The notes under the pieces: model-generated
The model's input: only the letters and a program-made list of their open reading frames with translations
What the model was told of the DNA's origin: nothing
The model's database searches: none
NCBI GenBank assembly: GCA_023144005.1
Contig: JAGLGN010000031.1
Location: 1-64,000 of the forward strand
Reading direction: 5' to 3'
Origin: a bacterium
GTDB taxonomy: Bacteria > AUK180
Length of the DNA: 64,000 nt
In this document: positions 10,691 to 44,718 of the stretch, one piece after another
Layout: each line of letters begins with the position of its first letter
Position numbering within the stretch: position 1 is the stretch's first letter
Position numbers and translations under genes: made by a program

Positions 10691-10718
10691 TTTTGCAACA
10701 AATGCAACAACCGTCCCC
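10691..10718 (-). repeat. Solitary REP-like element identical in form to the RAYT element right end
   Basis: TTTTGCAACAAATGCAACAACCGTCCCC; matches 42033-42060 and 45913-45940. Confidence 0.85.
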
Positions 10719-12305: not shown

Positions 12306-15300
12306 TTATTCAACTCCCCAGATCGCGGAAGCGATCGGTTGTGTAGATATCTCATCTGAATGTGGGCTTTCATTCCCATTGCTATCTACAGCAGTGATCT
12401 GATAAGAATATGTTCTGCCATTTGTCAAACCGATATCATAATATTGATGAGGAACAGAACCCAGGTGTACGATTAAGTTTCTGTTAATCGCTCTTGGATC
12501 GTTATCTCTATAGATATTATATCCCGCAATATCAGTCTCGATGGGGTTTCCATCCCACGTTATAGAGATCTTAGTATCATGGCCAACTACAACCAAACCT
12601 GAAGGTACTCCAGGGATATCATCTCTGGTAAGTGTTATCGAGAGCGACTTTTCACTTGGTACACCGTCTAAAGTGGAGATCGCGGTTATTACAAAATCCG
12701 ACCCCTCCGAAATCGCAAGAAGCGTATACTCCCAGTCACCATTAGCATCTACGCCGATGCCTGCGGCTACGGATGTGTCACCCCTAAATAATTCAATAGT
12801 AGCCCCGGGGTCAGCAGTTCCCTTAATTGTCTGAGGTGACCCGTTCACTATAAAAGGGTCTGCGTTTACAGAATAAGTAGTAGGATAGGTAATAATCGGC
12901 GGGAACACACCTATATTCACATAAGTCCCACTTCCGGAATAATCGCTTTCGTTTCCGGCATCATCGACCGCATTCAACCAGTAGTAGTAATCCCCTGCCG
13001 CACTCACATAATCAAAGTATTCATCGCCTTGAATCCCATCGGCAATTTCAACGGCACTGCTCAACTGATCAGTTACTCCCCGTTTCAATCTATACACTAG
13101 ATTTTCTCCAGCCGGTTCGGTCCAGTATAATCTGATCTTTCCCCCCTGAATGTGCTCCGCATTAAGAGTAGGAGCTGCGGGGTCCGTTAGATCAACTTCA
13201 AAATCCCTACCGGAAAGTATTGAAGTACTGTCACTGGTTTTATCTGCAAAATCAGTAGCAGCGAAAGAGAAATATCCTGCACCTTGTGCAACTGAAGTGG
13301 TATCAAGAACTCCAGTCCATAGATTTCCCGAACCCGTCAATATGATGTCCTGTGTGCCGCTGCCGTCGAAATGCGCTGTTAAAGTCGGAGTACCCTGGAT
13401 ATTTTCATTGGTTTTCAGATTAATATTAATGCTGCCAAGTCCAAATGGGGATGAAGGATTCGTAGTTATCCAGCAAACCGGTTTTGATATCTCCACAAGG
13501 TGATTTTTTCCTGAGAGTATTTCGTTACCGATATTTCCAACAAGATCATACCCTGTGGCTTCAAAATGGGACAATCCGTCATACTCATTTCCAGTGATTG
13601 AAAGAACAAATGAATACTCATTATCCGATACTTGAGAAATACCGGAAACTGTTACCTTATCAGAATACTCTGGTTTCCACTTGATCACCGGCATAGATTG
13701 CAGGTTCTCGGAACTGAATACAGAAAATGTATAGTCTCCTGGTGAGACAATCGGAAATGGCAGACATGAAATTGTAAAGTACGGTGGTGTTCCGTCTGTC
13801 GTAAGAGTTACAGGACTGGAATATTCACCTGTATTTCCAACATAATCGATAGCCCTCACACTGAAAGAATAATTTCCATCATCTGGGGTATGCAGGTATA
13901 TCTCTTTCTTGTTCATGTAGTATATTTCAGAAAACTCCTCGCCTTCCACCAGTATTTCAAATTCAGCAATATCCGTATCTGCGCACAGCCATCTAAGCTG
14001 GACCATGCGATTGGGAAATGCTTTTGCTAAAATTATTACCGGAGATGAAGGCGGATAACTGTCAACGGAGAATTCTTTTCCTGAAGTGATAACAGTTCCG
14101 GTGTTTCCATATTTATCATTTCCTTCGAATTGGAATTCGGCGGGGCCGGAAGAGGCACCTGCTGGAATCCATACGGAGCCGTTAAAGACGGTTAACTCAT
14201 CATTGCCACTTTGAAGCGTAATTTCCTGCTTTTCTCTGTCATAATACTGGACATTGATTTTAGGAACTTCAGTAAGCGGTTCATTACTCGTCAAGGTAAA
14301 TCCATAATGCAAATTGCTACCTACGATCAGAGGAAACCCTTCTATAAAGGCGGTGGGAGGAGAGGTTTCTATTATGAAATCCGTTCCTTCAGTGATCTCT
14401 TTCCCTATATTATCGGAAAAATCGACCGCATAAAAGTCAAAATATCCGGGGCCGTCCGATGTTGTCTCATTGAGATAGATACTTCCGGACCAGCTCTTTT
14501 CGCTCCCTTGAAGATTAATCATAAAATAATCGCCGTTATATGTCACCATCTGAAGTATGGGTTCGTTCTTAACGATTTCAGAAAGTTCTAAAGAAATCAG
14601 GAGCTTCCCGACTGTTAAAGGAGATTCTTGTGAAAGAACGATTATCGCTGTGGGTGAAATACTGTCACATCCCACTTCGGCAGGACCGGCTATGTCGCCC
14701 TCATTTCCGGCTTCATCGACAGCCGAGACGCTGTAATAATATATTGCATCTAAATCGGGAACATCTATATACTCACAATTGATTATTGAGACATCGAGCT
14801 TCTGACCGGCTTGATCCGGATCATCGCTTCTATACAAGAAATATTCGGAGGGAAGTTCACCTTGAGGTGGGCTCCAGGTTATCTTTATCTCTCCATTTCC
14901 CAGGGGTTGCGCATACAAATACTGAGGGATTCCGGGAGGAGTTGTGTCTATGATAAATGTTTTGCCTGAAGTGATCTGATCGCCTACTTTTCCTGAAAGA
15001 TCACTTCCCGAAAATTCAAATACCGCTTCACCGTCTCCCGATGTGGAGTCAACTGTATAACTTGCAGTAAAAACCGTATCTTCATCATTAGCGGGAGTAA
15101 GTATAAGGTTTTGCACAGCAGCCATTCCTGCAGTTTTTATCGAAAGTGAGTACGATTTTGATGTATCCAATGGTTCAGAAACTTGAAGCGCTATAGCCAA
15201 ATCCCCGGCTTTTACCGGAGATCCAGGAATAATAGATATCTGAGCGGTCGGGGGGTAGATATCCCATTGAATGCTGGCTCTATCTGAAACCTCGCTTTCA

Positions 15301-18300
15301 TTTCCGGCTTCGTCAACTGCGGTAACTGCATAGAAATACTCAGCATCAAGATCAAGGGTTGAATCCTGATATGAAGTCGCTGTAATGAGCACATCATTTA
15401 CTTTCGCAGCATTATCGGGTAAAGTAAATTCTGCAGTCTTTTTATAAATATTGTATCCTACGCAATCCTCCGCAACGGCTACCCAACTTGCCAAAACTGC
15501 ATTATTATCAATCACAGCGGTAAATCCGGATGGAGAGCTCGGAAGAGATGCATCCGCTATCACAACAACTTCGGCTGAATATGCCCCTTCATTGGTGGCC
15601 CGATCAATCGCTCTGACTTTGAATGTAACGGATTCCTCATCGAGAAACTTTCCAGAGTAAAAAGTCCTATCTTCGACTGATGTCATAATATCGGGATTGT
15701 CCGGACGAACAATATTCACATAGTAATATGATATTGAATCGTCATCGAGAGCGGGCCAGGTAAATTTGATTTCACCTTCAGGTTTCTTTTCAGCAACAGG
15801 TAGAGCCGGCGCAGCAGGAAACACAGTATCAATATTGAAAAATCTGTCTGTGGAAGTATTGTACTCACCTATATTAGCCCCTGTTTTACTATGGAGATCA
15901 TCAGCGCTGAAGAAAAATTCGGCTTGACCCTCTCCCGTGAAGCCATTTAAATTGATCTCACCAGTATAATTAAGCGGATTCCCAGGATCTATGGAGAGGG
16001 TGATATCATATCTTAAGTTATTGTAAAAATAGTAAAATTCAATAGTACTGGAATCAATCTCCTCTGAGAACTCTACTGAGACTGGAAAAATATCCTCATT
16101 CAGATATTGCTCCCCGTTGATAGAACCAGTAATCTCAATATCAGTGATATACGGGGCATGTATATTCGCTTCAAAAGTAACGGGAGTGCCTATGTTGATC
16201 CCTGTGTTTCCCGCAAGATCAATACCTGAGAATTCAAACTCTCCGGTTCCATCTCCGACATCAAGCAGAAATGTTCCCGTCCAGGTATAAGTACCGCCAT
16301 TTTCAGACACAAATGAAAGAGGGATCTCCTTTTCCCAGTCATTCAAGGACGGAATTTCTGCCTTGAATACGGGATCCTCCCGCAATTCCTCACTTATGTC
16401 AACCGTTACAGATACGATCTCATTGTCAATAATTCCTGAAGGATTAAGTGTAATCGATGTCACTTCAGGCGGAATCATGTCAACAAGAATACTAACTTCA
16501 TTTGAAAAGTTGTCGAGTACATTTCCGTATTGATCCGCTACCTGTGCCTTGTAAAAGTATGTTGATCCGTCGTCTTTATCCCCGGCATCATTAAAAATTG
16601 CACTATCGGTTTCTCCGATCTCACTGTAAGTTCCACTGCTAATTTTTCTATGTATCAAAAAGCTCGGATTCTCCTCACCTGAGCGATCTTTAAGAGCTAC
16701 TGCCACACCGTCAGCCGTTTGACTTAATGACTCTATGAGAGGCGTTGTAGAAGGCGGAGTGGAATCAAATACGATCGTAACGACTTCCGTCTCTTCAGTG
16801 TTGTCCATATCATCTATTGCATAGAATTCAACCGTATGCTCTATCGTGGTATCCGCTATCTGAAACGGACTGCCGCTATAAGTATTCCAGGGTTCGGTAC
16901 TGCTGTATGTGGTGATCCTGTAATGTATGATACTGGTATCAGAATAGTGGCTGGAAAAATTACAGGTATCATAAGTCGCTCCTACGGTATAGACATTTCC
17001 CGAAACAGTATACTTCCCTGTGGGCACAAGGAATGTCATCGGAGGAATGGTATCGATATCGAGAATTCTTCTTTTTTCGTTTTCCTGATTTCCATAATTG
17101 TCAATACCGTAATAATACAGGGAATGATTTCCCGACATTCCTTCTGGAATTGCGATAACATCACCGTGATTAGCGGTATGGTAAGGTTCAAAATCCCACT
17201 TGTAATAAATATCTGCGAGACCCGCAATATCAATATCGTCAGACTCGACAGTGATCAGAGTATTTTTTGATACTTTCGTGTATTCCAAAAAGTGATGAAA
17301 TGGGACTCCGAAAGCAAGTGTAGATTCCGGAGGAGAATGATCGACATCTATTATCTGAGAAATACCGGTTGAAAGGATACTTTCATTACCGGCTAAATCC
17401 ACAGCAGATATCTTATATTCATATGCCCCGTCATTGTACATCACTTCCGTAAAAGACAAATCAGTGGATTGCCCGATCTCAGTGTCATCCCTGTATATCA
17501 CATATCTAATGACATCCGATTCAGGCGAAGCTGACCAGTTCACTATGATGGAATTTTGATCTACGGAAGTGGTTGGCTGGTCAGGCAGGGCCGGAGCATC
17601 AAAATCCGTCACAACATTCAGAATATCCTCAGAAAAAGGATTTGCTTCATCATAAACCCTCAGGGCTATTATCAGATCAGTCCCGGATGTAATCCCAATA
17701 GGGAGAGTGATAGTGAACAACAATCCTTCCTGGACCTGTTCTGCGCCTGTTAGAATTTCAGTCCAAGCAGACCCGTTGTCGGCGGAGTATCTTAGTGTGA
17801 AGTGATCGAATGAATCATCAGTAGCAGAACCTCTTATCTCAAATGTTCTCCCGACCGATTCGCCCTCACCGGGAGTTGTTATCAGAGCATAAGGGAGCTC
17901 CCTGTCAACTTTTATCTCGATCTTCTTGTTTGATTCACTCCCACTCTGTACTGCTGCGATTTCCGCATAATAATATCCGTCTATGGCAGTTTCAAGATCC
18001 AGATCAGAACCGTCCCATTCACATATATGAACTCCCGTTGTTTTGGACTCTTCAGAAAGAAGTGTTTTTACCAGTGAATCATCCGATTTTTTCTTTATCA
18101 ACAGTGTGATCGTACTGTCACTTGCTATCGTATAAGAAAAAACAGCGGAATCTTTATTCCCGTCGCTATTCGGAGAAATACTTGTATTGTCAACGGTGAA
18201 GTCTGTTATGAAACCCGTTTGAACATCATACGATAAGTGGCAAGTATTTTTCACTTCTCCACCGATAAATGCGCTCACCCGCACATTGTATATCCCGTAG

Positions 18301-20960: not shown

Positions 20961-20962
20961 GA

Positions 20963-21550
20963 TCACCTCTTCTCTACTATTGAGATCAAACGCATACAAT
21001 CAAACCTTACCGTTTTAATATACTGGAAATCCGGGTAATCAGAAATGATTTCCTCGTAAACACCTATCGCCCTTTCGTAGTCGTTTAGCTTTTCATACGC
21101 TTTGCCTTTTCGGTATTTAACACTGACCAAATACTTACTGTCTGGATGAAGAGCTTCAAATTCACTGTATTGCAGTGCGGCTTGTTCATATCGCATGGCA
21201 AAAAAGTAGCAATCGCCAATCCATTTAAATGCGATGGCTGAAGTCTCGCTACCCCCTTGGGCGGCGCTTTCCCGGAAGGCGGAAATTGCCATTTCTATCG
21301 GATATATCCTATTTTCCACCTTGAGGGCGTTCTCTTTATCCCACAAGTAGTAAAGGGCAATTCCCTTTTCAAAAAGCACCTCTGAAGCGAAGTCACCAGC
21401 GGCAGGCATCAATAAATCGCATTTCTCTACCGCTGCTTCGAATTTTCCTTTCTTTATCAGATTCCTGATCTCCACAAGCCCGGATTCTGCGAATACTGAA
21501 ACACATATCATCATAACAACGATCAATGTACTAATCTTGTTAATTTTCAT
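20963..21550 (-). CDS. Secreted tetratricopeptide-repeat protein
   Basis: Signal peptide 'STLIVVMMICVSVFA'; 'AFKWIGDCYFFAMRYEQAALQYSEFEALHPDSKYLVSVKYRKGKAYEKLNDYERAIGVYEEIISDYPD'. Confidence 0.85.
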   Translation of the reverse strand: MKINKISTLIVVMMICVSVFAESGLVEIRNLIKKGKFEAAVEKCDLLMPAAGDFASEVLFEKGIALYYLWDKENALKVENRIYPIEMAISAFRESAAQGGSETSAIAFKWIGDCYFFAMRYEQAALQYSEFEALHPDSKYLVSVKYRKGKAYEKLNDYERAIGVYEEIISDYPDFQYIKTVRFDCMRLISIVEKR

Positions 21551-33500: not shown

Positions 33501-36500
33501 TCAATATTACATCTCCATCATCCGGGGTCCTCGAATACCAGCCCATATTCGAGCCGGTGAAGTGGTATTGCGCAAATGACGGATGAGTTGTAGAATAGAT
33601 ATCCTTGATCTTCGGAGGACTTGAATCGATATATGCGATATCGGAATACACAGCGGGATCGCTGAGGAGCGCGACAGTGATCTTTTCCCCATGAGGCCCG
33701 GCATAGATAGTGTTTCTGCCCTTCAGGGAATCTGCGATCAATTGAGAGATGTCTTTAACAGTAATACTGCCCCGGTAATCCCCTGAGTCCACCGCGGTCT
33801 CTTCAAGTCTTACTATAATTCCATCCGGATCAGTTGTCTCGCTGCTTACCCTGACTTCTATGGTATCGATCTCTGCGATATTCTGCTGGTCATTGATCGC
33901 TTCAATATAGAATTTTTCTCCAGATGAGATCGAGATTATCGGTTGTGCAAAGGTCTCTTCGAAGATCTCAATATTATTTATCGAATTGGATATGTCGGGA
34001 ACATTGATATACATCGGATTCGATTCATCCGACTGCCAGCCGAATTCGTCGGTAAGGGTCGCGTAAATGTGGTTTCCGCCGGGGAACAATTCAACATTAC
34101 TGAAAAAGAACCAGCCGAGTTTTCTGATGTTCTGATTGGTATAATGCTTTTCTTCATCCGTATCTTCACTCACTACCCTCAATGCGACCGTACCCTTTCT
34201 TTCGGCCCAACCGAAGATGTGCGTGCTGTGGTAGTTGTAATCTTCTTTGTGTTCATAGAGATATGGACTGTCGGGCCGCTCCTTGGGAGCCATTACGGTG
34301 AAGTATGCGGAATACGGAGGGAGATCTCTAAGATATCCGGTTACATTCAAATCACCGGTATCCGGATCGCCTGTTATCACCGTATCTTGACTTCTAACCG
34401 GATGCCATTCTCTGAGGATGGTATCGAATAGACATATTTTTGCATGGTTAAGAGGTGTCTCCTCGTAGATTATGCCTTCTTCGAACTCGAAATAATCATA
34501 ATATTCAGTGTCGTCAATAACTTCCTCGGCAATATCAAATGTGGATGCCGGAAGCGTTATCGAGAAAACTCCGGTATCATGGAATATTTCTCCCGGAGGA
34601 CGCAGTTCAAAGATATTCCCGCAGACATAGTCATCGGATGGAGTTACAGCGACTTCTTCAGGTGCATATTCCACAATGGACATTAAGAGATAGGAGTGGT
34701 CCAGAGCGGCAAAAGGCAGCGAGAAACTCGCTTTTTTTGATTCTGATATCGTCATACACTCATTGAACGAGCTCATTTTCCTGCCGACGGTGATGATCTT
34801 TTCGTCGGAAGTGGAATTGCCCGATCTGTCCCAGACTTCAAGTTTCAAGGTATATTCACCGTTAAGGCCGTCATCAAGCACTTCCTCGCCCCACCAGAGA
34901 TCGCCGCCTACATTCCACTGACCGAGATTGCCGAAGACCGTTGTAACATTATCCCTCATGGCAAGTCCTGATATCATATGTTCCTGCGATGAATCCACTA
35001 TTTCCGTCCAGGATGTGGGATTATTCCCTTTGCCGTATGAAATAACATAACGCGCAAAATCCCTCGCCGAAGCAATGCCGGCAATCGGTATACTGGCCCT
35101 TATCAGGCTGTTTTCAGCGGGAACCGTTATTTCGGCATCAAGATTGTTAACAAAAACCACCTTTGAATCATAAAGCGTGGAATCAGACGCATCCTTTAGA
35201 TTCAATGTGTAGAACCCGTTATCTACAAATGCATCAGCATCGTCTTTTCCGTCCCAAATGATGGTTGAGATATAAGTATCACACAGATCCACACTTAGGC
35301 TTCTTATCACAGTGCCGTCTAATTCTATCTCTGCTACAAGATCGGTCAAGGGATTATTTTTAAAGTAGGTAAAAGTGAAAGTAGTATTGTTGTCAGGTAC
35401 ATCACTTTCCGGGATCGGATAGATATCGGGAAGAGAATCGTTTATCTCTGTGCTCAGGCAGGTCTTGTCCCAAACCACATCGCCGCCATGATGGCCGAAA
35501 AGGATACCTTTCACCTTTTTGTTTACAAGGCCGACTGCGGAGGTCGGTATCTTTAATCTGACCCATTGATTAACCGGAATTTCAGTAAAGATACCACCGA
35601 GTCTCATAAGAGACGGTGTATTGTTCACTCCACCAGTGGGGATCAGGTCTGCGCCGAAGTAGCAGCGGTGTTCACCGTTTCCATTATCGGTGTAAAACTG
35701 CATCATTATCTCATGCGGCAGGGATTTCAGATAGATGTATTGAACAATGTATTTTTCAACGCCGTATCCGTCCTGCTCGATAAGGACTCCATCGCTGGGA
35801 GCGAGGTAATAGTGAGAGTGCCAGGCTGAAGTTGTGTTGTTCTGGTGGGCTGAGCCTCCCGAAAACACAGGATCCGTGATCCATGAAAAGCTTCCAGTTA
35901 ATGTAGATGATGCAGGAAAATCATCTTCGACAATATAACCTGGAATATCAGGAATAGGTATATATTCTCCGGTAATGAGCTGATCCGAGTGCGATAAATA
36001 ATCCCCTGCATCATGATACTCTGCCAGATTGTCAACGCTTCTGAACCTGCTTTCAGCTTCCCATTCTACGCCTGCAATGCTGCCGTATTGCGCAGAAGTG
36101 CCTCCGTTTAATACAACAGTTGTCTCTGTGGAAATATAGTTACCGGCATAATCATATGCACTGATTCGCAAGACATATTCTCCGGGTGGATAGTTTTTTC
36201 CGTCCAGTTCACCGAGCAGGCCATCCTTGGACATATAATCCATGTTAATAAAATCATATGATCCTCCGGTTATGTCGGATATCTCGTAATACTTCAAATA
36301 TTTGTCATTTATGTTTCCATAAATACCATAGAATCCGGGCTTATCTTCGATTGGCTTGACTTCCAATGTATCTATTGTGGGAAGTGTTTTGTCAACAATT
36401 ACTCTTCCCTCTTTGCATATTTCTTCGTCGGTTTCTGAGGAATATTTCATTACAAATGTGTATTCTCCATCAGAAACATAATATCCGTAATTATCTCTGC

Positions 36501-39312
36501 CGTTCCATTCCGCCTTGTTTATTCCGGGGATAATCGGCTCTTTGTCCCAGATGCTCTTTTGTTCATCTCCAAGGGAGTCATATATATGAAAATCCGCAGT
36601 CCCCTGATCCGAGAATTCCGAAAATAATTCGATGATATCATAAACCCCGGGAGAACTGACCGGAGAAAAAGAGTATTTCGCAATAGTCGGTAACTGCTCT
36701 GAATATGCGGCATCATTAAAAGAAAGGCCTGAAGGACCGATATTATTGATATAATATTCTTCGTATTTTTCATATAAATAATTTTCTGCTTCATATGGTT
36801 GGAGGCCCGACCAGTCCAATTCATAATCCAACAACTTTATTTTTTCAGGTGAAATATCCGTAATAAGGATCTTCTTTGATTGTTGCACGAAGGTAGGATC
36901 GGGTGTCACAATTGTGTGAATCTCATGGCAATCTTTCGGAATTGCCTTTATCACTCTTCTTGCCTTCGCACTTTTTTTGTCTGAACTTGTCGCTTCAACG
37001 ATAACCAGTCCCAGAATCGTTGTGCCTTCAATAACTACTTCTTTCCCGTAGGGCTTCTTGGGAGAGGTTTCACTTTTAATTGGACATTCATAACTTTCTA
37101 TGCTGCCTACATCAACGGTAATTGTAACCTCGATCTTGGCAGGAGTTTTTAATGTACATTCAGGAGTAAGGATAATGGGAGTTGAATTGATGACTATTTC
37201 AGGAACTCCCTTCTCGTATGACAATGATACAGGTTGATCAACTGTCTTTTGGCAAGCATCACCTGCTTCTCTGATCCTAATTATTGTTGAAGCGGTAATT
37301 TCATCACCCGCAACCAGAACACTTGCGGAAAACTTGGTTTCCCCATCTGCATCGATCTCAAAACTAATGGATTTTCCAATTTTATCGCCCTCACCATATT
37401 GAACATTACTTACTTCCTCGTTATCATCATCGCTCCATCCGATATTGATAGGATTATTAAGGTCTTCTATGAACAATTCAATATGTAGCTTTTGGGTGCC
37501 TTCATTTCTTAAATAATATGTTTCTTCAACTGTAATTACACCACTTGGTGGTCGGTTAACGAAATTTGATTCACAACCGGTAGCAATCGGCAGTTCCACA
37601 TCCTTTAGAGTGAACTCTTCCTTTTTATCATCTCCTGTTTCATAATTCCAGCTGCCATCATCTTTTCTGTCCGGTTTGTCGTCTCTCTTGGGATTGATCT
37701 GATTTCCCGCAAGGTCCTTTGTATCCTTTGAGATGATTACCTTATACTCCTCGCAAGGTATCACCAAATACGCTGGAAGCGTACCATGCCATGTATCATC
37801 CTCAAATTCGGTCTCATCCCATCCTTTTGTTTCAGTATGGGCAGTTGAGATATCAAGTATCCATTCTTCATCAGGAACATCATCATCGCTGTTTTTGATC
37901 GTAACGGTGAGTTTGGCGTCTTGATTGTCCATGCTTTCATTGAACTGGATACTGAAATCAAGAGGTTCGGTGGGATCGACATTTAGGAATTGATCTTCAT
38001 CGGAATATATCTCGCTGCCGTACTGACTGATTGTTATGTTGTGAACTATCGGGACGGTATTGTCAACAGATACCTGAATAAATCCATCTTTCTTATGCCC
38101 TAATACACCTGGAGTTGGATAACCGGGGAATAGCATTGATGTAGGCATCTGTAAATCCGATACCTCAAATTGCAATTCGTAGAATCCATCAGGATAATTT
38201 CCGCTCAGGGTATCCCACACGCCATCATTAATGTTTGATTGATGTATCCCATTAATGTAACCGGCATCTTTGTACAATTCAAACCAGTTCTTTTTTTCCC
38301 TTAGTGAGACAAAGGGTGGTGTAGCTCTATATATTTTATCCCAAGCCCAATCCGAGACAGGGGAATCAGTACCATCTCTAGGTGATGAATTGAATTGCAT
38401 CCAATAATATAACTCATTGTATCGATGTTCTTTATCCTTATTCACATAGAACTTTAAGTCATATGGTGCTGCGGTTTTTTTCTCGTCTCCGAATTGATCA
38501 TAAGCATTTATTAAAAATTTTATTTTCCCATTAACGCTAATCCAAGGATCATCGTCAATGTTGCCGGTTACAGTGGGCATAAATATTATCGCTGCTTTTA
38601 ATCCCGATTCTGTAGCTGTAAGGGTACTTGCGCCCTCTACAACTGCAGGCATTTGGGAATGATATTTGATATTTGATGATTTGTCTTCACTCAATATCCC
38701 TACATACTTTATAATGGGTTCTTCAACATCAACTGGACGATTTAGGAAAAAGAGTGGATTCTCAAACTCATCTGACGAATTCCTTACACCGAAATGCAAA
38801 TGATCAGCTCTAATTGTCTTTTCTTTATTACTATAATATATGCCAACTTCGCACATCTCCGTGTTCCACGGAATCTTAAGATAATCAATATTAGGACCAG
38901 GAAGGACTTGAACATGAGTTACTTCTGTAACCTCATCGGTAAATATATCGCCCACTTTTATTTGCCGTATTTTGGGGATGCCAGTGTCAGGATCAATATA
39001 TGTAATCTCTTTCGGATTTTGTATATGCACATACATTATTTCGCGCCCTGAATCATTTTGAATTATAATATATTTGCTGTATTCAGATGTTAAAATAATT
39101 CCCTCAATTATGCCTGATTCAGCTACATACACTTTGTCTTCTTCAGTTGCTCGTATATCAATACCAGAATGAATATGCGTCGGCCTATACTCGCCGAATG
39201 TACCTGTAATTATTTTTGGACTATCATTTGTATCCAATGGCCATCTTGTGGCTATTAACAACATTTGTAAACAAAATATTATTAATAGTACAAGGAGTTT
39301 TCTACTCTTCAT
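21550..39312 (-). CDS. 5920-aa giant exported protein: N-terminal M23-type metallopeptidase domain, FlgD-Ig domains, TolB-like propeller segments, long array of OmpL47/Ig-like repeats, C-terminal helical region
   Basis: Single uninterrupted 17.8-kb ORF; signal peptide; M23 motifs 'HIHSGIDIRA' (HxxxD) and 'DHLHFGV' (HxH); 'FSPNDDGIKD', 'FSPDGDECED', 'FSPNGDNCLD'; dozens of 'DNVGN/DNLGN' repeat endings. Confidence 0.9.
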   Translation of the reverse strand: MKSRKLLVLLIIFCLQMLLIATRWPLDTNDSPKIITGTFGEYRPTHIHSGIDIRATEEDKVYVAESGIIEGIILTSEYSKYIIIQNDSGREIMYVHIQNPKEITYIDPDTGIPKIRQIKVGDIFTDEVTEVTHVQVLPGPNIDYLKIPWNTEMCEVGIYYSNKEKTIRADHLHFGVRNSSDEFENPLFFLNRPVDVEEPIIKYVGILSEDKSSNIKYHSQMPAVVEGASTLTATESGLKAAIIFMPTVTGNIDDDPWISVNGKIKFLINAYDQFGDEKKTAAPYDLKFYVNKDKEHRYNELYYWMQFNSSPRDGTDSPVSDWAWDKIYRATPPFVSLREKKNWFELYKDAGYINGIHQSNINDGVWDTLSGNYPDGFYELQFEVSDLQMPTSMLFPGYPTPGVLGHKKDGFIQVSVDNTVPIVHNITISQYGSEIYSDEDQFLNVDPTEPLDFSIQFNESMDNQDAKLTVTIKNSDDDVPDEEWILDISTAHTETKGWDETEFEDDTWHGTLPAYLVIPCEEYKVIISKDTKDLAGNQINPKRDDKPDRKDDGSWNYETGDDKKEEFTLKDVELPIATGCESNFVNRPPSGVITVEETYYLRNEGTQKLHIELFIEDLNNPINIGWSDDDNEEVSNVQYGEGDKIGKSISFEIDADGETKFSASVLVAGDEITASTIIRIREAGDACQKTVDQPVSLSYEKGVPEIVINSTPIILTPECTLKTPAKIEVTITVDVGSIESYECPIKSETSPKKPYGKEVVIEGTTILGLVIVEATSSDKKSAKARRVIKAIPKDCHEIHTIVTPDPTFVQQSKKILITDISPEKIKLLDYELDWSGLQPYEAENYLYEKYEEYYINNIGPSGLSFNDAAYSEQLPTIAKYSFSPVSSPGVYDIIELFSEFSDQGTADFHIYDSLGDEQKSIWDKEPIIPGINKAEWNGRDNYGYYVSDGEYTFVMKYSSETDEEICKEGRVIVDKTLPTIDTLEVKPIEDKPGFYGIYGNINDKYLKYYEISDITGGSYDFINMDYMSKDGLLGELDGKNYPPGEYVLRISAYDYAGNYISTETTVVLNGGTSAQYGSIAGVEWEAESRFRSVDNLAEYHDAGDYLSHSDQLITGEYIPIPDIPGYIVEDDFPASSTLTGSFSWITDPVFSGGSAHQNNTTSAWHSHYYLAPSDGVLIEQDGYGVEKYIVQYIYLKSLPHEIMMQFYTDNGNGEHRCYFGADLIPTGGVNNTPSLMRLGGIFTEIPVNQWVRLKIPTSAVGLVNKKVKGILFGHHGGDVVWDKTCLSTEINDSLPDIYPIPESDVPDNNTTFTFTYFKNNPLTDLVAEIELDGTVIRSLSVDLCDTYISTIIWDGKDDADAFVDNGFYTLNLKDASDSTLYDSKVVFVNNLDAEITVPAENSLIRASIPIAGIASARDFARYVISYGKGNNPTSWTEIVDSSQEHMISGLAMRDNVTTVFGNLGQWNVGGDLWWGEEVLDDGLNGEYTLKLEVWDRSGNSTSDEKIITVGRKMSSFNECMTISESKKASFSLPFAALDHSYLLMSIVEYAPEEVAVTPSDDYVCGNIFELRPPGEIFHDTGVFSITLPASTFDIAEEVIDDTEYYDYFEFEEGIIYEETPLNHAKICLFDTILREWHPVRSQDTVITGDPDTGDLNVTGYLRDLPPYSAYFTVMAPKERPDSPYLYEHKEDYNYHSTHIFGWAERKGTVALRVVSEDTDEEKHYTNQNIRKLGWFFFSNVELFPGGNHIYATLTDEFGWQSDESNPMYINVPDISNSINNIEIFEETFAQPIISISSGEKFYIEAINDQQNIAEIDTIEVRVSSETTDPDGIIVRLEETAVDSGDYRGSITVKDISQLIADSLKGRNTIYAGPHGEKITVALLSDPAVYSDIAYIDSSPPKIKDIYSTTHPSFAQYHFTGSNMGWYSRTPDDGDVILNISDEGSSDNFLRFVKGEEGSDYSYIISEAAVDCGEYPIWSFDYRTEQGVSFNLYLEIGSKLYFIPLTGDETGDEMMYSLKTFDNGQLIIDNYWHNYEFDIYSLLHKYVIENAGTAPADEILDNNYTIKKVYLGDWICDNFFIYKSQNQTGSYFDIDNFIMESADPLSIGDAADIKIFWTGDEDGLKYASVFSTIRGLEPDFSLMNANTSFEGYSDQLIGNELFYYLNLAAIDPAGNRSCVYPYRVRVDRQGPYAYDPAPVTDGGAIGTIHITDGNGFGVDPSTISVYLNSEAAARGIDDPGIEYDGLSGLLTVNLLKTKDFIVTNGEYVRISLTSASDRAGNLLQNPTIWEWRVDYSSSTGGSLKLLTVREGREPAVSPAGGKIAFVSLRGGNDDIWLIESNDIEELENTAVSLTGSMARESDPALLSSEGQPSWSPDGTRIAFTSDAAGIREVYTVRLAEPLEIIRLTNSTLDLSEPTWLSNDTIVFEKDGELWKQKLTGGVPEILHYESYGDLREPSVSNELDRIALRKSIYDDTIRIFNVDNKSLEKVTTGPLDFHPSWLPGDSGLLYSRKEGGFYRLWTSDLENMIKYRILENTSNTDDCRAASSPDGKNIYFQSSRSGEWNIWVLSMFDLENLYVEPAVFSPNDDGIKDITELYFTISIDGVWITVDILDAAGNTVFPSFENAKYQSGSYRLAWHGYNDADPAGIVPSGIYSFVITARSEETGEEIRKTVKVTVQKEAPTLSLALSGNYGVFVNNNTVFKINRSYAGNSLAQLQHIYYRTDPASEWIESGASQFKFDVPANSFNFQYKAIDDAGNYTSVYGEPLIGDNIAPVTLFTSESGKTYFDDSNLFFADGANFTLNATDTGCGVKYIRYSIGSSGDLTYDTPVVVTGRGNRLIRFYAGDNLINNETVQQQVILLDPDPPEALNITFSGYATEYFDGITKFFTGDDVICEMSSEDGASGVKIVEYKLDADVSWNEYTGAIGPFTLDSHVISYRATDNVGNVTRIFETAFEITDSIPYSAITIDPAPYIDALGRIFVKDALIGFTWDPPATGVMYRIHPTTDYTFFDGSSSPFTLPNPGMQKISFYSYDNLAAASLEDERTYTIYVDDLSPVTTVAFTGEHFNNYISGSTGVIFTSVDQGLDEASGVKEILYAKGTSDQYQPYTIPLLTGPSEESVTYHYYSEDNTANIESPIKSITLDIDRLPPIVELSGVSGNYLFDNASGKVYVSGLFELGFTSSDTGSGVRNIYYLYDLPEDGSAWNIFSANFADFTENTRIYYFADDNVGNSTGISERQIIADNQGPQLYLSSSMGIYEKDGYDYSSPDNSFYISGTDVSGIDKITYTIDGYPIGGSDYSDGMQIPSPAEDGFRIGYKGIDLLNNESQYERTISVDSDIPVSSISVSGASYDPGSGYLYITSSTVLSISATDMTSGIANTEWRINNMEWTDGNVPLIGSEETFLEYRSLDNVGNLETVKSTVIYVDDNSPVTSIAKYDDIHTDGVNYYVTPGTSVFLSVSDESLTAYTKYRIDIGDEIVYDESAGVLFDTEETYTFAFRSTDILGNVEVEKEVSVICDLQIPLVTLTCSKPLHITTDDVFSSLDNIFKLNWTDASIGFVEYQIDASGFTPYVEDAEFQLISAGAHTIEVKAWDATSTLIYQKTWPVYVDNTPPSGSIAFDPDYIIETVQYASSVTDITLTGTDTADVKNSGVKEIQYSINKGNYVVYTAGFHPYILSGIEEIDYTIVDNVGNEESYNETYSVDGIPPLTYISFTGIVAATPQGLRVTSGSNGFSFISSDPGTITTGVDLTQYRFDDAAWIDYVQDSVIDLASLSSGLHEIGYHSIDNLSNMEDERIFPLYIDNDAPAVTHSVIPYVYNDAGTGYNWISGTARISLSATDIFPDVIKYRMGAAGEFGDYCAPLSIAQEGDYLLSYYGIDKVGNTSATEDFSFNVDIGDPEINYAVVGDNYSPDDGPIYVKDSTTFDLSATDTGSGVKSTQYSTDGIFWVNSVQYPGGYSEAGTPLYFRGVDNVGNFSEIVSVNSILDESAPSLDFTINGFYINREGNYAETITGYSYTISAADTGSGIDNITYSINGGSSIITDSDEVEFILAATGLYTITYSAVDNLGNSTGDYEFTIKVTDEINCVLAISDKPLHETDTQLFASLDYVFTLENRCPGSAFDLIEYNNDSVEGTYLTYSIPLYPSAQATYSIFYKAVNTGDGTYGPVGELIVDIDDLPPDSTLATSGPSSGTYVNHETLFTISVSEHSSYSTSGVRNSYFKYGTDGYSIYDVPFTITSEDGPLTVSYYSEDNVFNTETENTEDFTMDNTPPEITLTATNSYGEDPLYVLSTTDITLEFTDAGCGEDLAQCYYKVDDGAYILYSTALQIIGQGSHILTVKSADLLGNETEEITYDIFLDGEVPVALISVVSGPAYLDASSDLYVSTETYFGISGTDSGSGLEKRYYSIDGGTDIEYTQDFNMTLLDGSHTISAYVSDNLGNISTTVDKTVILDSIPPTVPLLTTAVLTFDGVLVSFTGSTDDHSGLTDAHSGVNSYILSRNNKKIADIAFGAATYLDEVLPEGYDAEYTLCAVDNVLNISGESSLSLSVTDLSPVVTLTSDLTKFSPDGDECEDQVIFTLNVSDDRGIEYWTLDITSMITGQAIYSIAGAAETTNYIFTWDGNDASGLSAPEGTYTCTLTAEDPNGNQDIDSVSVDLDTTRKITTIALDNTIEFPTGYFTGQPIFNSSGEIVTYMLSEDECRCNNCFIQPGITLPYNISRNAGIWSGNIDGTLIVNNVPEAFKPAGWPWWQTWYPPPTDVPKLSFDDNYLAYFRGYKIEILDLINNTTDIIDESVLEWDHVWNKQANDLAFISRTNGGTTLKIYNESGISTVRELYAFSYGIDWSNNGQFLAVNGTPDSNEQGNPNPVYTVNLAGSVPVYQKISENDEWCWQPLISPDNRKLAYFSWVAGNIYSIKVVFLDEAGNLQDYNGAPAVEIADFDMTTSYAVDMIGWSSDSKYVYYALADNMIPGEDCLVVPKFSASPDPFGEQVNYTILPGKPDILEYSIGKVDFLGRNDTIIANNMEIAAMSFGYAIAYPAISRDGTKIVYSEYNSGNSGNISILGLTEHPECEQGQWNVPGSVANLECDVIATVDPSDLLSPVDTLMISSLPVNSIPGENTNLENIEPIISEVYDIKLLSGQTEFNNSIELTFTYTDEEVEGLDETRLQVWTYNDESGMWHIAQTDDIQILRDTAGNSLTVMVDSISGLFILSGYYGDETRPEFISSTVIPLYFSPNGDNCLDICELRFTMDKFARADLRVFDRGGNVLFEDHRYVLPNEENTFIWNGLSSDGMAYTDELYAFELTAVDVEGLESNVYYESVFIDLISPVSSVNFNGSIYQIAGTTFVSDMSNLEISSVDGGLYSSGVENVMFSIDESELQQYLMPVYFSGLAEGLHEMSYYGKDNACNTEISSSASFTVDGTPPEIALDYHPFKISGVNTLVFKGTLFSLITQDALSGVKNIQYRVASASGQNDTGWMNYVDQFVLPFSIPGKYTISYKASDNVDNTTEEFTIEVILVPATETIVAASEFERVLLLNGEGFEEPETLEFLSGLPDLLIVDNIVDFVDEMRTGMYNVYWINEKDENLPGSTSEELKEHVFSGKGLLSSGYIQMISEGGSPELFNLKYTGEYPENDYIVDISDSIISNAGTIPVEGWIQRLEVYDATVVSQEIPGTITISGNIPAPVISLNSFGDGKASYYGFDLLNNAGNISMEEIISRNIDYFAPASTGEYLPGMVAVVTINVIADISTDIRIIETVPQNVEILKAYDSGVIDENTITFDFASSESEFSARYLIRIPDYSGDLDFNTNTLYKVDNIWFNSETVQRNVTVASTVAGLKESIMEKLAEITAITQYSNKIGNAIKIFERIAEYPGTIDELDKAVSDILKSIGNVRQVIDVDTKECLLQMDKLLLYYESLYREVE
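25950..31270 (-). repeat. Protein-level array of OmpL47/Ig-like repeats within the 5920-aa ORF (limits approximate)
   Basis: Recurring pattern '..(V/I)..S.DTGSGV..I.Y.ID......Y......F.......I.Y...DNVGN.E......(V/I)D..PP' at roughly 80-100 aa spacing. Confidence 0.8.
33221..33256. repeat. Copy of the ATTGTCAATT/TTGTCCATTG repeat embedded in coding sequence of the giant ORF
   Basis: CAATAATTGTCAATTATCAATTGTCCATTGTCAAAT; shares the 16-mer AATTGTCCATTGTCAA with intergenic 4923-4938; encodes 'FDNGQLIIDNYW'. Confidence 0.8.
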
Positions 39313-40831
39313 TCTCCGCCCTTTCTATCATTTTGTTCATTCTTTCCTTTAGTGATTTTGAGGATCTTCGGATTATTATCTTCTGTTTGTTTTCACCAAT
39401 TTGTGCAATTTCGGAATATAAATTTTTAGAGTAATTAATCTTATTCGCATAATAACTCGCAAGCTTTTCGTTAAAATTCTGGCGAACATGGTCGCCTTTC
39501 TTATTTATCATTGGAATCATATCTTGAAAGACAAAAAAAATATTGCCATCATTCAATACTTTAACATCTCCCATTCCAAAGAATTTATTGAGATTGTTCC
39601 AGGTTTTACTTTCCATGTTTATTAGATATCCCATTGAACTGGTAGGGGAAGGTTTCATTAGCAGATATTTACTATTTTCGCTAATATAGTAAATGCTACT
39701 TATTGAGGGTACATCCAATATTTCTTCACCATCTATTGTATAAATGTTTGTATAGCCTCTGTAAATTACAGGCTTATGGATAGATAATGCGAATTTATCC
39801 TCATCAGGAAATACATAAAAACTTGGATTACCTGATCGGGCAATGCCATCTTCTCGTATTTTCGCTACAATGCTTCCATTATAATTCAACACATAAAACT
39901 CAACATAATTTTTTTTAATATCCTTTTCATGTGTATTATCATAGATCATTACAAAAGCATACTTCTCGCCTAAGTATGCGGTACCAACCTTTTCCGAAGG
40001 CATTTCATCATATTCAGGATCTGGTGTACCATAATATTCTATTAGGTTGCCCTTGATATCATATAACTCTATCAATCCCTTTTCTCCACTGAAACCAAGA
40101 AAGTATTTTCCGGCAGGGCTTACAGCATTTCTCCAGCCAACATATTCCTTGTTTAAAATTAAATTCAATTTTTCATCATATATCCTTACGCCATTATGCA
40201 CTCTATCACTTCTATCTTTCCATATTCCATAAGTCAATACCGTATATTTTTTACATGAAGAAATACTTAGATGATCATTTCCTTCTCGTTCAACTTTCTT
40301 AACATATATTATCTCACCTTTTCCATTAAATTCAATTACCTTAAGATAATGCTTATATCTCTTCTCCTTTACCTTAGTTTTTACAAATATTCTTTCCGGG
40401 TACTCGAAATCGTCTGTTTCCTTCCACCTTATATTTATTATCTCTCCATCTATTTCTGCACTTTCCCAGACCTTCTCCATTTTGAAATCCGGCATTGCTT
40501 TATATGTGATCCTGTTTCTTCCTTTTTCTACCTTCTCTACGATCCATCCGTTCTTGTCTATCATCGTTCCGTCTTTCAACACTTTGATATGCTCTTTTTC
40601 TAAGAATTCCTTGTTCGCATCGAAATTATCTAAGTGTACTTCCTTCTTGATACCGGACTGCTTGACAGCTTGCTGCTTCTCAGTATTCACTTCTGCTATT
40701 GAAGTTTTGACTTCTTTGTTGGCAACCTTTTTTCCACTAAATAAATTATTATCTCCCCTCACAAAGATGATCACAGCAACGAAAATCACAACCGCCGCAC
40801 CGAACAATGACAGGAAAAGCTTCTTTTTCAT
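39302..40831 (-). CDS. Membrane-anchored beta-propeller-like protein, upstream partner of the 5920-aa protein
   Basis: N-terminal TM segment; repeated 'D..G...' propeller-like strands ('FNGKGEIIYVKKV', 'YDIKGNLIEYY', 'LNYNGSIVAKI', 'YTIDGEEILDV'); overlaps the giant ORF by 11 bp. Confidence 0.65.
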   Translation of the reverse strand: MKKKLFLSLFGAAVVIFVAVIIFVRGDNNLFSGKKVANKEVKTSIAEVNTEKQQAVKQSGIKKEVHLDNFDANKEFLEKEHIKVLKDGTMIDKNGWIVEKVEKGRNRITYKAMPDFKMEKVWESAEIDGEIINIRWKETDDFEYPERIFVKTKVKEKRYKHYLKVIEFNGKGEIIYVKKVEREGNDHLSISSCKKYTVLTYGIWKDRSDRVHNGVRIYDEKLNLILNKEYVGWRNAVSPAGKYFLGFSGEKGLIELYDIKGNLIEYYGTPDPEYDEMPSEKVGTAYLGEKYAFVMIYDNTHEKDIKKNYVEFYVLNYNGSIVAKIREDGIARSGNPSFYVFPDEDKFALSIHKPVIYRGYTNIYTIDGEEILDVPSISSIYYISENSKYLLMKPSPTSSMGYLINMESKTWNNLNKFFGMGDVKVLNDGNIFFVFQDMIPMINKKGDHVRQNFNEKLASYYANKINYSKNLYSEIAQIGENKQKIIIRRSSKSLKERMNKMIERAENEE

Positions 40832-40843
40832 ATATATCTCCCT

Positions 40844-41640
40844 TTTATAAATTAACCATTTACTGAAAACAACTCTTTAATAATTTCCCTTTGTGTTTTT
40901 GTTTCGTGAAAAGTAATGACATCCCTTTCACTTATCTCTCGCATGTAATATTGTATCATTTAAGCATTGATATTCAAAGAATATCTATCAATTATTCCAT
41001 TGGTTTCTATAACAACCCTTGTGTTGGGAAATGCATTTTTCTATATTTCGCAATATCTCTATTTTACCCTATTTCCCCTTCTTCTATTCTGATTTCCCGC
41101 ACTACCGCGAGTCAATATTGTTGAGCAACCATATTGGGGACGGTTGTTGCATCTGTTGCATAACTATTCCTCACTCTTCAATATCCTCCCCACTGTCGAC
41201 CGGTTTACTTCCATCAGACGAGCAATGCCTGCTCTCGAAATTCCCTCCTTCAACAGTAGGAGAAAAGCATTTCGCAATGTCTTTCTATTTTCACCAAAAT
41301 TCTTCATACTTTTAAGTACTTTCAAATCGTAGCCATTCTCCTTAAAAAGAATATTACATTTCTCTTGGGTCTTTTCAATCTCCCTCCGCTTCTCAATGTA
41401 CTTCCCTTTCTCTCTCCCTTCTTGTCTCTTGTCGAAATTGATATACGCTATCTCATTCCCGATCGAATCCTTGAAGGTGGGAAATTCATCAGGCCCGGCC
41501 TCCATGAATTCTAGATAATCCTCCGTTGATCTGAAAACTGGCAAGTTCCTGAGTCCAGAAATATTCTCTTCCTTGTTGCTTTCATAATATGAAGCGCTTG
41601 AATATTCGTACTCAGAAGGTTCATCACATATTTTTGCCTT
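40844..41640. repeat. Segmental duplication copy A (spacer + RAYT left end + 3' half of RAYT gene)
   Basis: Near-identical to about 44719-45520; high identity drops near 41632. Confidence 0.85.
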
Positions 41641-42060
41641 CACAGGATTCATATGTATATACTTGATCAGGTGCATCAAATAAGCTTCATCCAGAACTAT
41701 CATGGATTTATACCTGTCCTGGAAAACATGTCCAGTGAGGTCGTAATGATGATTGAAATACATTGCATATCGTATATTTAAACGCTTCATAAAACTATGT
41801 AGAAGCATCTTGTTTCTCTTCACAAGAAGATGAACATGATTTGTCATCAGGCAATACGCATAAATATCTAAATCATGTTCTTCAAAGATCTCATTGAAAA
41901 TCTCGAAATACTTCTGTCTGTCTTCGGGTGAAAAATACAGAGGGTTCTTCCTTTGTCCACGACAGGTTATGTGGTAATAAAAGCCTTCGACATCAAGTCG
42001 AGCAGTTCTTGGCATATTTGGTTATACTACATTTATGCAACAAATGCAACAACCGTCCCC
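41136..42060 (-). mobile_element. RAYT (Y1/REP-associated tyrosine transposase) element A with 28-bp imperfect inverted ends
   Basis: Ends 41136-41163 (GGGGACGGTTGTTGCATCTGTTGCATAA) and 42033-42060 (reverse complement with one mismatch) flank a Y1 transposase ORF. Confidence 0.85.
41164..42015 (-). CDS. REP-associated tyrosine (Y1/HUH, IS200-like) transposase with C-terminal HTH, copy A
   Basis: 'MPRTARLDVEGFYYHITCRGQRK', HUH 'YCLMTNHVHLLV', 'GHVFQDRYKSMIV..AYLMHLIKYIHMNPVKAKI', C-terminal 'ISRAGIARLMEVNRSTVGRILK'. Confidence 0.93.
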   Translation of the reverse strand: MPRTARLDVEGFYYHITCRGQRKNPLYFSPEDRQKYFEIFNEIFEEHDLDIYAYCLMTNHVHLLVKRNKMLLHSFMKRLNIRYAMYFNHHYDLTGHVFQDRYKSMIVLDEAYLMHLIKYIHMNPVKAKICDEPSEYEYSSASYYESNKEENISGLRNLPVFRSTEDYLEFMEAGPDEFPTFKDSIGNEIAYINFDKRQEGREKGKYIEKRREIEKTQEKCNILFKENGYDLKVLKSMKNFGENRKTLRNAFLLLLKEGISRAGIARLMEVNRSTVGRILKSEE

Positions 42061-42067
42061 GATATTC

Positions 42068-43378
42068 CTATTGTACATTGAATACAAGATTTTCATTTAT
42101 TTCGGATATTATTTTAGGAATTATCTCCTGAATTGTTCCTGCTATTTTATCAGTATAGGTGTTGATTTCTTCACTAAACTGAATTTCGAAATAGAGTTTG
42201 TTTACTTGAGGATCAACACTGATTAATGATTCAGTAGCATCGGGAAATATTTCAAAATCATAAATTCCTTCTTGAACTCCCACTTCAACTGAAGAGACGC
42301 AAGGTAGTGTGTTATCAATTACTATTGGAAATGCTTCCTTTGCTACATTCATATTATAATCATATGCATATACTTCAAAGTGATAGAAACCATCATCATA
42401 TTCCCTAGAATTAAAACTTTCTGGCTTATCTTTTGAATCTAGATATTGATCATCATTTGTGTTTGTAATAATATATACCATATAGTGCTGACTTGAAATA
42501 TCCCAATAGATAGTGTGAAGGTATTTGTCTTCTATCCCAGTAGTAAGTTTGGGCGAAAATATTGTCTTTGATATTATATTTTTCTCTTTGTCTAATACTG
42601 CATATCCATATCTAAATACTCCAGGCTTGCTTTTATTCGTCGACACGGAACTTTGGTTAATAATGTCATAAATTCCAAAATAACCGTCTACGTTATGCCG
42701 TACTATTGTCTCGCTAAGATTATTTTCACTATAGCCTTCTTCAAAGGGGAGAGAAGTGAAGAAGTGCTCGGGGTCATAGTAACATCGATAAAAATACTTA
42801 GCATGTTCCTTCATAATAACCGGAGGATCCTCATCAGAGATAGGCCTACCTATATTGTCGAAATATTCATTTGGATCATGCGCCCGAAATTGGGATTTTA
42901 GTATCGTTTTACCCGTATCTTGATCGGTTTCAGGTACAAATATTAATTTTTTATAAACAAAATGAACATGGTAGAATGAATCATCTCGAGGAAATAACTT
43001 TTCCGCAATTACATCACCTGTTTCTACTAGAACACCATCAATTTCGGAATCCCCAGGTTTTCCTTCTAAATATGTAATATCAACATGACCGTAACTAAAT
43101 GTCTTAGTCCCATCATTAACATAGATATAGTCATAATATGATCCCCCGGTTGAGTCAACTGTGAATGCAAGTCCAGAAGACACACTTATTACATCCTCAA
43201 TATAAATTGGAGAATGGAAATCCATTGCTTTATGAAATACATTTGTTCTGATATCTCCGTATATTCCTGATATTAGATCATCATTCTCTATTGGTCGATT
43301 TCCACTATATTCTCCGAATGCGTTATAACCGAGAAATATACATAATAATAACCCAATAAATAATCTATAACGGATCAT
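42068..43378 (-). CDS. Exported M23-type metallopeptidase paralog (short version of the N-terminus of the 5920-aa protein)
   Basis: Signal peptide; 'VFHKAMDFHSPI' (HxxxD) and 'FYHVHFVYK' (HxH); downstream 'GFYHFEVYAYDYNMNVAKEAFPIVIDNTLPCVSSVEV' parallels 'GFYELQFEVSD...VSVDNTVPIVHNITI' of the giant ORF. Confidence 0.75.
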   Translation of the reverse strand: MIRYRLFIGLLLCIFLGYNAFGEYSGNRPIENDDLISGIYGDIRTNVFHKAMDFHSPIYIEDVISVSSGLAFTVDSTGGSYYDYIYVNDGTKTFSYGHVDITYLEGKPGDSEIDGVLVETGDVIAEKLFPRDDSFYHVHFVYKKLIFVPETDQDTGKTILKSQFRAHDPNEYFDNIGRPISDEDPPVIMKEHAKYFYRCYYDPEHFFTSLPFEEGYSENNLSETIVRHNVDGYFGIYDIINQSSVSTNKSKPGVFRYGYAVLDKEKNIISKTIFSPKLTTGIEDKYLHTIYWDISSQHYMVYIITNTNDDQYLDSKDKPESFNSREYDDGFYHFEVYAYDYNMNVAKEAFPIVIDNTLPCVSSVEVGVQEGIYDFEIFPDATESLISVDPQVNKLYFEIQFSEEINTYTDKIAGTIQEIIPKIISEINENLVFNVQ

Positions 43379-44712
43379 TCTTGTTTCCTAGAATATTTCC
43401 AAATCTCATTTTCACTTTTTATTATATAGATTTCGTTATTAGATTTTCTGAAAAACGGATACTTCTTATCTAAGATATCGATATTAACTATCTCCTCAAA
43501 TACCGTTTCAAACATTTCATTCAATATTTTGAATTTTTCTATTGTTCTATTATTACTAAGAAATATATACGTTTCTCTATTCTCCTCACTGAATATTACA
43601 TCATGTATAGATAATTCTCCTTCATTAATCTTCACATTAGAAATAATATTTCCATCCTCAGTATCTATGAGAAATATCTCATCTCCGATGCCTAAGATTA
43701 CTCTTCCATTTTCCATTGTTTCGTATCTCTTTTTTCCTTCTTTTGGCAATTTTAATACTTCCTCTCCTGATAAATCTAAAATGTAGAAGTTATGTTGTGT
43801 TTTCAGGAGAATCCTGTTATTGAAAAATAGAAAAGGATAGTAATCCTTAAAACCATAATAGATACCGTGACCAGGAATTATTTTTGACCATAATAAATTC
43901 CCTTTTGCATCAAATAGATAGGTATACAATTTACAATCTTCTCTTTTTTGCGTAGGAGAATCGCTTTCACCAAACACAAAAACATACAAGTCATCACTAA
44001 TAAAATTCGCTACCATCCTATCAAAGCTTATATTTATCTTGTTAAGTAAATCAATCCTTTGCTTTCCATTTGTACTAACAATCTCTATACTTTCCTTAAA
44101 ATATGGGTTGTGTTCTCCCGCCCAGGAAATGAAATATTTATTGTTTTTAGAAATTTCATAATTTGCCAATGTTAATTTAGTTGATCTCGTTTCTCCATAA
44201 CTGTCATAAATAGTAACATAGTTGGTTTCAAAATCTCTTTCAATATATAAATCCAAATTGAATAGGGGTGAATAGAAGCATGTTTTTCTGGGACTCTTCA
44301 CTTTAACAACATTATCTTTCGCGAAATTAGTAAAAACGTAATTATGAGAAAACACTATATTGTTACCAGAAGAGATTATTGAAAGAGGTTTTGATTTGTC
44401 TAAAGATGAGTATTGCTTCATCTTTTTAGCGTAAATTCTGTCCTTATAAACTATATCAATTGACTTAATTCTCTCGTTGATCTCATCTGTAAACTTATTA
44501 ACTCCTAAATTTTCCTTACTGGCTCCATCATTTCCCTCGTGGAATATGGATTCTCCCTTTTCTTCAGCTTCTATCTTACTAGTTTGTTTAGTCCCAGCTG
44601 TTTCCTTTTCAGTAATTATCTTCTCGTTTTTCTTCTTCCCACAAGAAACCAGTCCGACAAGCAACAATAAAACTATAAGCAGTGCAACAAAAAATCCCTT
44701 CTTCATATACAT
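43375..44712 (-). CDS. Beta-propeller-like lipoprotein (paralogous position to 39302-40831)
   Basis: Lipobox 'LLVGLVSC'; propeller-like repeats 'LFDAKGNLLWSKI', 'YILDLSGEEVLKL', 'LIDTEDGNIISNV'; 4-bp overlap with the M23 paralog. Confidence 0.7.
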   Translation of the reverse strand: MYMKKGFFVALLIVLLLLVGLVSCGKKKNEKIITEKETAGTKQTSKIEAEEKGESIFHEGNDGASKENLGVNKFTDEINERIKSIDIVYKDRIYAKKMKQYSSLDKSKPLSIISSGNNIVFSHNYVFTNFAKDNVVKVKSPRKTCFYSPLFNLDLYIERDFETNYVTIYDSYGETRSTKLTLANYEISKNNKYFISWAGEHNPYFKESIEIVSTNGKQRIDLLNKINISFDRMVANFISDDLYVFVFGESDSPTQKREDCKLYTYLFDAKGNLLWSKIIPGHGIYYGFKDYYPFLFFNNRILLKTQHNFYILDLSGEEVLKLPKEGKKRYETMENGRVILGIGDEIFLIDTEDGNIISNVKINEGELSIHDVIFSEENRETYIFLSNNRTIEKFKILNEMFETVFEEIVNIDILDKKYPFFRKSNNEIYIIKSENEIWKYSRKQE

Positions 44713-44718
44713 CTCCCA

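Follow-up and report, generated by a model that had tools for sequence, protein, structure and literature searches.

Two neighbouring gene pairs at this locus each encode a propeller-like protein followed by a protein with a predicted M23 peptidase head and Ig-like domains, which raises the question of why a bacterium should carry such a pair once in giant and once in miniature form. The window (the whole stretch of DNA that was analysed, 64,000 nucleotides) comes from a draft assembly of 38 contigs, here called G000, and it was compared with G001, the only other genome of the genus in the comparison, and with more distant genomes. A sequence-only reading had taken the two pairs for a repeated two-gene unit within a modular envelope system, with the smaller pair as a paralogous accessory cassette, and all the open reading frames that it named were found where it had placed them.

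Organisation of the locus

On the minus strand of the window the genes run in the order secretin, R1, propS, M23S, R2, propL, M23L, TPR and FN3/TolB, among the following features (TIR, terminal inverted repeat):

45947-47731, minus: secretin (GspD-like), the final gene of a T2SS/pilus-type operon (Pfam Secretin, 7e-43)
45913-45940, plus: TIR of 28 bp, 6 bp past the secretin stop
45044-45895, minus: R1, 283-aa Y1 (HUH) transposase of RAYT/TIRYT type (Y1_Tnp, 2.6e-15)
45016-45043, minus: TIR, inverted partner of 45913-45940 (repeat match)
44713-45015, minus: common leader of about 300 bp, sharing about 95% identity with 40832-41135 and containing the promoter-like TTGAAT-16-TACAAT (44852-44825)
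43375-44712, minus: propS, 445 aa, lipobox LVSC, all-beta, probable propeller (from sequence and model)
42068-43378, minus: M23S, 436 aa, signal peptide, HxxxD and HxH, Ig-like region with an abrupt end
42033-42060, plus: TIR, 7 bp past the M23S stop (repeat match)
41164-42015, minus: R2, 283-aa transposase, 90% identical to R1, the C-terminal halves nearly identical
41136-41163, minus: TIR, inverted partner of 42033-42060 (repeat match)
40832-41135, minus: common leader, promoter-like TTGAAT-16-TACAAT at 40977-40950
39302-40831, minus: propL, 509 aa, N-terminal membrane anchor, predicted beta-propeller, hypervariable at about 110-370
21550-39312, minus: M23L, 5920 aa, with M23 (about 40-180), Ig/FlgD_ig/Big_13, PD40 propellers and CHU_C
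20963-21550, minus: TPR protein, 195 aa, signal peptide
12306-20999, minus: FN3/TolB-propeller protein, 2897 aa, with hypervariable propeller regions
10742-12265, minus: T2SSE-type ATPase fused to a class III nucleotide cyclase, within the TIR-bounded block
10691-10718, plus: TIR, left bound of the block, beyond which the gene order is unlike that of G001

The secretin is the right border of the unit and lies outside it. Both tandem pairs have the claimed order and overlapping ends, by 11 nt for propL and M23L (39302-39312) and by 4 nt for propS and M23S (43375-43378). M23L overlaps the TPR gene by 1 nt (21550), and the giant unit does continue, as had been proposed, into the TPR protein and then the 2897-aa FN3/TolB protein. 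The latter has two near-identical TolB-propeller segments (residues of about 140-420 and 545-830, by eye), the second of which is strongly diverged in G001. The T2SSE-cyclase fusion gene (10742-12265, minus strand) was not found beside the FN3 gene of G001, where the contig ends 336 bp downstream.

Homology of the two pairs

PropS and propL share 23.6% identity over 165 aa (E 4e-4), and their alignment scores above those of shuffled sequences (z 3.5-4.6; none of 300 shuffles as high). For the propL model (pLDDT 47) the best 50 PDB fold matches are all of propeller type, with E values of about 1e-6 to 4e-5 and TM below 0.45, so that the propeller identity claimed for both proteins is supported for propL with low to moderate confidence, and is suggestive for propS, the model of which is poor (pLDDT 34) but beta-rich with propeller-type fold matches. 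A search for solved relatives of propL returned none, and a search of genome contigs for a propL-type propeller gave a record of the congener only, five further genomes of the same class being without a match.

The similarity of M23S to M23L is stronger (E 2.5e-6; shuffle z 9.6, with 0 of 300 shuffles as high). M23L carries H48 and D52, H96 and H171-x-H173, M23S carries HKAMD and HVH, and HxxxD and HxH are kept in all four heads compared. The probable M23 assignment of these heads rests on the motifs and on a profile match to PDB M23 relatives (E 1.9e-7), the PF01551 cut-off aside; against that profile M23L scored just below the cut-off (27.2 against 28.7 bits), M23S gave no match and a giant of G076, a genome of another family, scored above it (31.4 bits). 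The similar domain starts that had been noted are therefore real in that the pairs are homologous above shuffles, but the likeness is weak, at about 24% identity. M23S is slightly nearer to the G076 head (shuffle z 12.1) than to M23L (9.6), with M23L and G076 at 8.5, and this speaks against a recent duplication as the source of the mini unit. M23S ends inside an Ig-like domain that goes on in M23L, with its stop 7 bp before a TIR, and so looks truncated.

A profile of the M23 head matched 221 of the 383 genomes searched, in most of them within a much shorter protein (best matches of about 600-800 aa). Among the matches listed from the 383, M23-headed giants belonged to this genus and to G076 only. 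Viral contigs held no relative of the M23 head, and a prophage or viral origin was rejected.

A transposon-like element and common leader before each pair

The upstream DNA had been called near-identical. The two copies (40823-42065 and 44698-45940) align over 1243 columns at 89.7% identity, rising to about 95% in the last 300 bp before the propeller start codons, but most of this repeat is a transposase gene with inverted repeats, and thus the repeated block spans three genes and is not a two-gene unit. Each block consists of a gene for a 283-aa IS200-like Y1 transposase between inverted 28-33-nt repeats, followed by about 300 bp with the promoter-like TTGAAT-16-TACAAT. Identity between the blocks is a mosaic, of about 70-82% over the first 400 nt, 96-100% over the second half of the transposase and 92-98% in the leader except for a short indel beside the inner repeat, which implies recombination or conversion after duplication. 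A known RNA element was sought in the shared leader, with no Rfam match in the window.

Both transposases match Pfam Y1_Tnp above its cut-off (E 2e-16 and 3e-15), and R1 and R2 both carry the HUH motif NHVH and the catalytic-tyrosine motif YIHMNP. R1 has a C-terminal HTH_23 match below the Pfam cut-off (E 1.7e-4; 21.8 against 24.6 bits), and the two transposases reach 74.6 and 71.6 bits on the NCBIfam REP transposase profile, whose cut-off is 80. Inverted TIRs with arms of 28-33 nt flank both copies, and the TIR starts GGGGACGG, agreeing at 7 of 8 positions, with one mismatch, with GGGGWSAS, the published TIR consensus of TIRYT elements (PMC3733652). The TIR also belongs to a dispersed family (23 copies in G000 and 26 in G001; none for a reversed control pattern), while R1 and R2 are the only TIR-flanked members of the five Y1_Tnp genes in G000. 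By these features the element is of TIRYT/RAYT type and transposon-like, with transposition putative. An integron was rejected as an alternative, since neither G000 nor G001 had an IntI (TIGR02249) match that passed the cut-off (the best reached 88 of 265 bits).

The same 28-bp TIR clusters among defence genes elsewhere in these genomes (contigs C9, C16, C37 and C34 of G000 and C95 and C154 of G001). Most copies at a given locus point the same way, and many lie a short distance past stop codons. The defence genes at these clusters include GajA (6e-217), GajB (3e-134), AbiD, AbiLi/Lii, a type IIG R-M, HEC-05, caspase-like and TIR-domain genes. One TIR site with equal flanks holds about 2.3 kb of cargo in G000 against about 24.5 kb in G001, and several TIR copies terminate repeats of 250-340 bp. 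With the transposase flanks excluded, TIR orientation agreed with the GC-skew strand in 33 cases and disagreed in 2, the copies being clustered and non-independent; such a strand bias is as expected from lagging-strand single-strand insertion (PMC6006769).

Conservation in the congener and in a distant genome

G001 retains the propL-M23L pair, the head of which is 77% identical, together with the stalk and the genes for the TPR and FN3/TolB proteins. The G001 contig starts at propL residue 69, so that the comparison covers residue 69 onward, and it ends after 982 aa of the giant, with the remainder on other contigs. G076 encodes a subtilase lipoprotein of 1128 aa that ends in a propeller-like domain and whose gene overlaps by 4 nt that of a 6219-aa M23-Ig-kelch-NHL giant, and the alignment of G001 propL with this partner gave a shuffle z of 5.3. 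The search for such pairs in other genomes was thus positive twice, and the recurrence of a homologous overlapping pair in G076 argues that the propeller/M23-Ig pair is a real unit. The literature was searched for a propeller/M23-Ig giant pair and nothing fitting was found.

PropS and M23S were not found in six relatives (G001 and the five further genomes of the same class). With the mini pair in 0 of 6 relatives and M23S looking truncated, the idea of an accessory cassette of a working system fits the pair less well than that of a spare 5' module. A modular envelope system is partly supported by export signals, wall and surface domains and homologous recurring pairs, but the giant lies in different genomic positions in G000 and G001. 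Next to its secretin G001 has, in place of the unit, a carboxyethylornithine-synthase-like gene (named by sequence reading); where G000 has the giant locus, a papain-type gene in G001 adjoins an IS110/RHS-like region (by eye), and the change beside the papain-type gene falls at a TIR in both genomes. Gene order switches between the genomes at or beside the TIRs at 10691 and 45913. On G001 contig C71 (7189-18994), next to the papain gene, an IS110-like transposase gene precedes a series of RHS-repeat-like genes interspersed with small ones (by eye). A TIR on G000 contig C13 (252824-252851) lies about 80 bp from the contig end, beside the synthase-like gene that adjoins the secretin in G001, which suggests rearrangement at TIRs.

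These changes of gene order on either side of the block, in a draft assembly with 300-nt stretches repeated at 95-99% identity, are also what would be seen if two unrelated loci had been wrongly joined at a near-identical element. We consider this highly improbable: the element copies differ by 10% across their whole length, and their first 400 nt by about 22%, which could let reads tell them apart, and chance mis-joining would not yield two units alike in order and promoter and with homologous genes.

Patchy divergence of the head

G000 was compared with G001 for synonymous and non-synonymous divergence, the genus being represented by these two genomes. Against a background dS of about 0.03-0.5 (0.04-0.13 for an MMPL gene and 0.18-0.51 for the secretin), propL windows 129-368 had a dN of 0.10-0.79 and a dS from about 0.8 to saturation, while residues 399-509 had a dS of 0-0.41. 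The M23 domain was similarly diverged, with a dS of 1.9 and 25 of 50 residues identical at M23L 51-100, and yet H48, D52, H96, H171 and H173 are all kept in G001. Further peaks were found at M23L 301-350 (0.95), 1976-2076 (1.28) and 4676-4776 (0.92), in the N-terminal half of the TPR protein (1.39) and in the TolB propeller of the FN3/TolB protein (608-808; 1.2-2.7), whereas most of the rest of the 5920 aa of M23L had a dS of 0.03-0.38.

High dS together with high dN beside near-identical flanks points to divergent alleles having been swapped in, rather than to amino-acid selection alone, and so to replacement of the propL core and the M23 domain by allelic exchange in either direction, as judged from these two genomes. 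The mini unit was rejected as a direct donor of the giant's head, as only the element and leader are repeated between the units at the DNA level, and homologous exchange between the two units is thus unsupported.

The locus might instead have arisen by tandem duplication of the transposase-promoter-propeller-M23 block followed by fast divergence, with a truncated, decaying spare copy and no head exchange. Gene order, promoter and overlapping ends alike in both units would fit this, as would a mini pair that is absent from six relatives and an M23S without a stalk. We nevertheless regard it as a possible but rather doubtful explanation, because propS and M23S both form long, uninterrupted frames in DNA that is AT-rich, and the catalytic motif of M23 is retained in M23S; the pairs, at about 24% identity, diverged much earlier than the leader and the 3' half of the transposase, which are 95-99% identical, and a single recent event misfits; and the giant pair's own head appears to have been replaced between congeners.

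A proposed role for the pairs

The best explanation of the whole, which we would give about an even chance of being right, is a coupled propeller and M23-headed giant with a recombining head, for which the mini pair is a spare module. A membrane-anchored propeller would be translationally coupled to a giant that is exported and bears its M23 (LytM-type) head on an Ig/propeller stalk; the pair is followed by the TPR protein, predicted to be exported as well, and by another stalk protein. Export to the surface is predicted from signal peptides and the lipobox (by inspection), and the giant may be a fibre or adhesin there. Its M23 head would cut or bind peptidoglycan cross-links, either in the cell's own wall during assembly or in that of a cell it touches. 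The propeller would be produced in step with the giant and could dock on or control the head. The head would be the variable, specificity-type part, swapped between alleles by recombination, and each copy of it lies behind a TIRYT-type transposon-like element and a common promoter. The mini pair would then represent a divergent second head lineage, its 3' end cut where the next element begins, and could be a spare or orphan 5' module left by recombination or insertion at the elements, rather than a second complete system.

A toxin-immunity role is very unlikely in our judgement, in which the M23 head would attack the peptidoglycan of neighbours, the propeller would be its cognate immunity protein or inhibitor and the mini pair would be an orphan effector-immunity module. 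The propeller core and M23 domain are both hypervariable with most of the stalk conserved, and an orphan pair adjoins the main pair, as orphan modules do in other polymorphic effector loci. However, polymorphic toxins generally have the variable toxin at the C-terminus and the immunity gene downstream, and this layout was rejected here, the variable part being N-terminal and the partner gene upstream; in addition, the M23 head occurs mostly in short proteins (best matches of about 600-800 aa), a setting closer to that of an envelope enzyme or one with a housekeeping role.

Returning to the coupled pair with a recombining head, a bolder form of it, which is unlikely to be correct as it stands, has the propeller and M23 head as a co-diversifying recognition pair, with spare heads kept in tandem behind near-identical TIR-transposase-promoter blocks that act as a recombination handle. 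As part of this unlikely form, the locus would correspond to the orphan-tip polymorphic surface systems, but with the swapping at the 5' end, N-terminal in the protein.

If the best explanation above, of a coupled pair with a recombining head, is right, the diversification of a giant envelope protein would be linked to a family of single-strand transposases that is as a rule found with solo repeats alone. The giant's peptidase head and its coupled propeller would then change in concert, against a stalk of 5400 aa that is for the most part nearly constant. The propeller and M23 head would offer a testable partner pair in a class of giants of mostly unknown function, with G076 as a distant second example.

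Comparison with known systems

The locus resembles the polymorphic effector loci (Rhs, CDI), which have a conserved long stalk, a variable end and orphan modules, in having such a stalk and variable end with an adjoining orphan copy of that end, but here the variable end is N-terminal, the partner gene is upstream and an immunity role is hypothetical. Short M23/LytM peptidases (with a "TFGEYR..HxGID" head, the best matches about 600-800 aa) are alike in head sequence, in motif layout and, in those read, in an Ig-like region after the peptidase, while M23L differs in its stalk of about 5400 aa and its coupled propeller gene. TIRtron/TIRYT elements (TnpA-REP subclass 2.1, RAYT group 1) share the Y1 HUH transposase, with a putative HTH_23-like C-terminal region, and the GGGG-starting inverted TIRs, which also form a dispersed family (PMC3733652, PMC6006769), but in this case two copies lie in tandem and the promoter that they have in common runs into a pair of cargo genes. 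The huge surface proteins of bacteria (PMC11573180, PMC12863079) are likewise giant, exported and multi-domain, and the giant described here is set apart from them by its N-terminal M23 peptidase, its coupled propeller partner and a head that appears to recombine.
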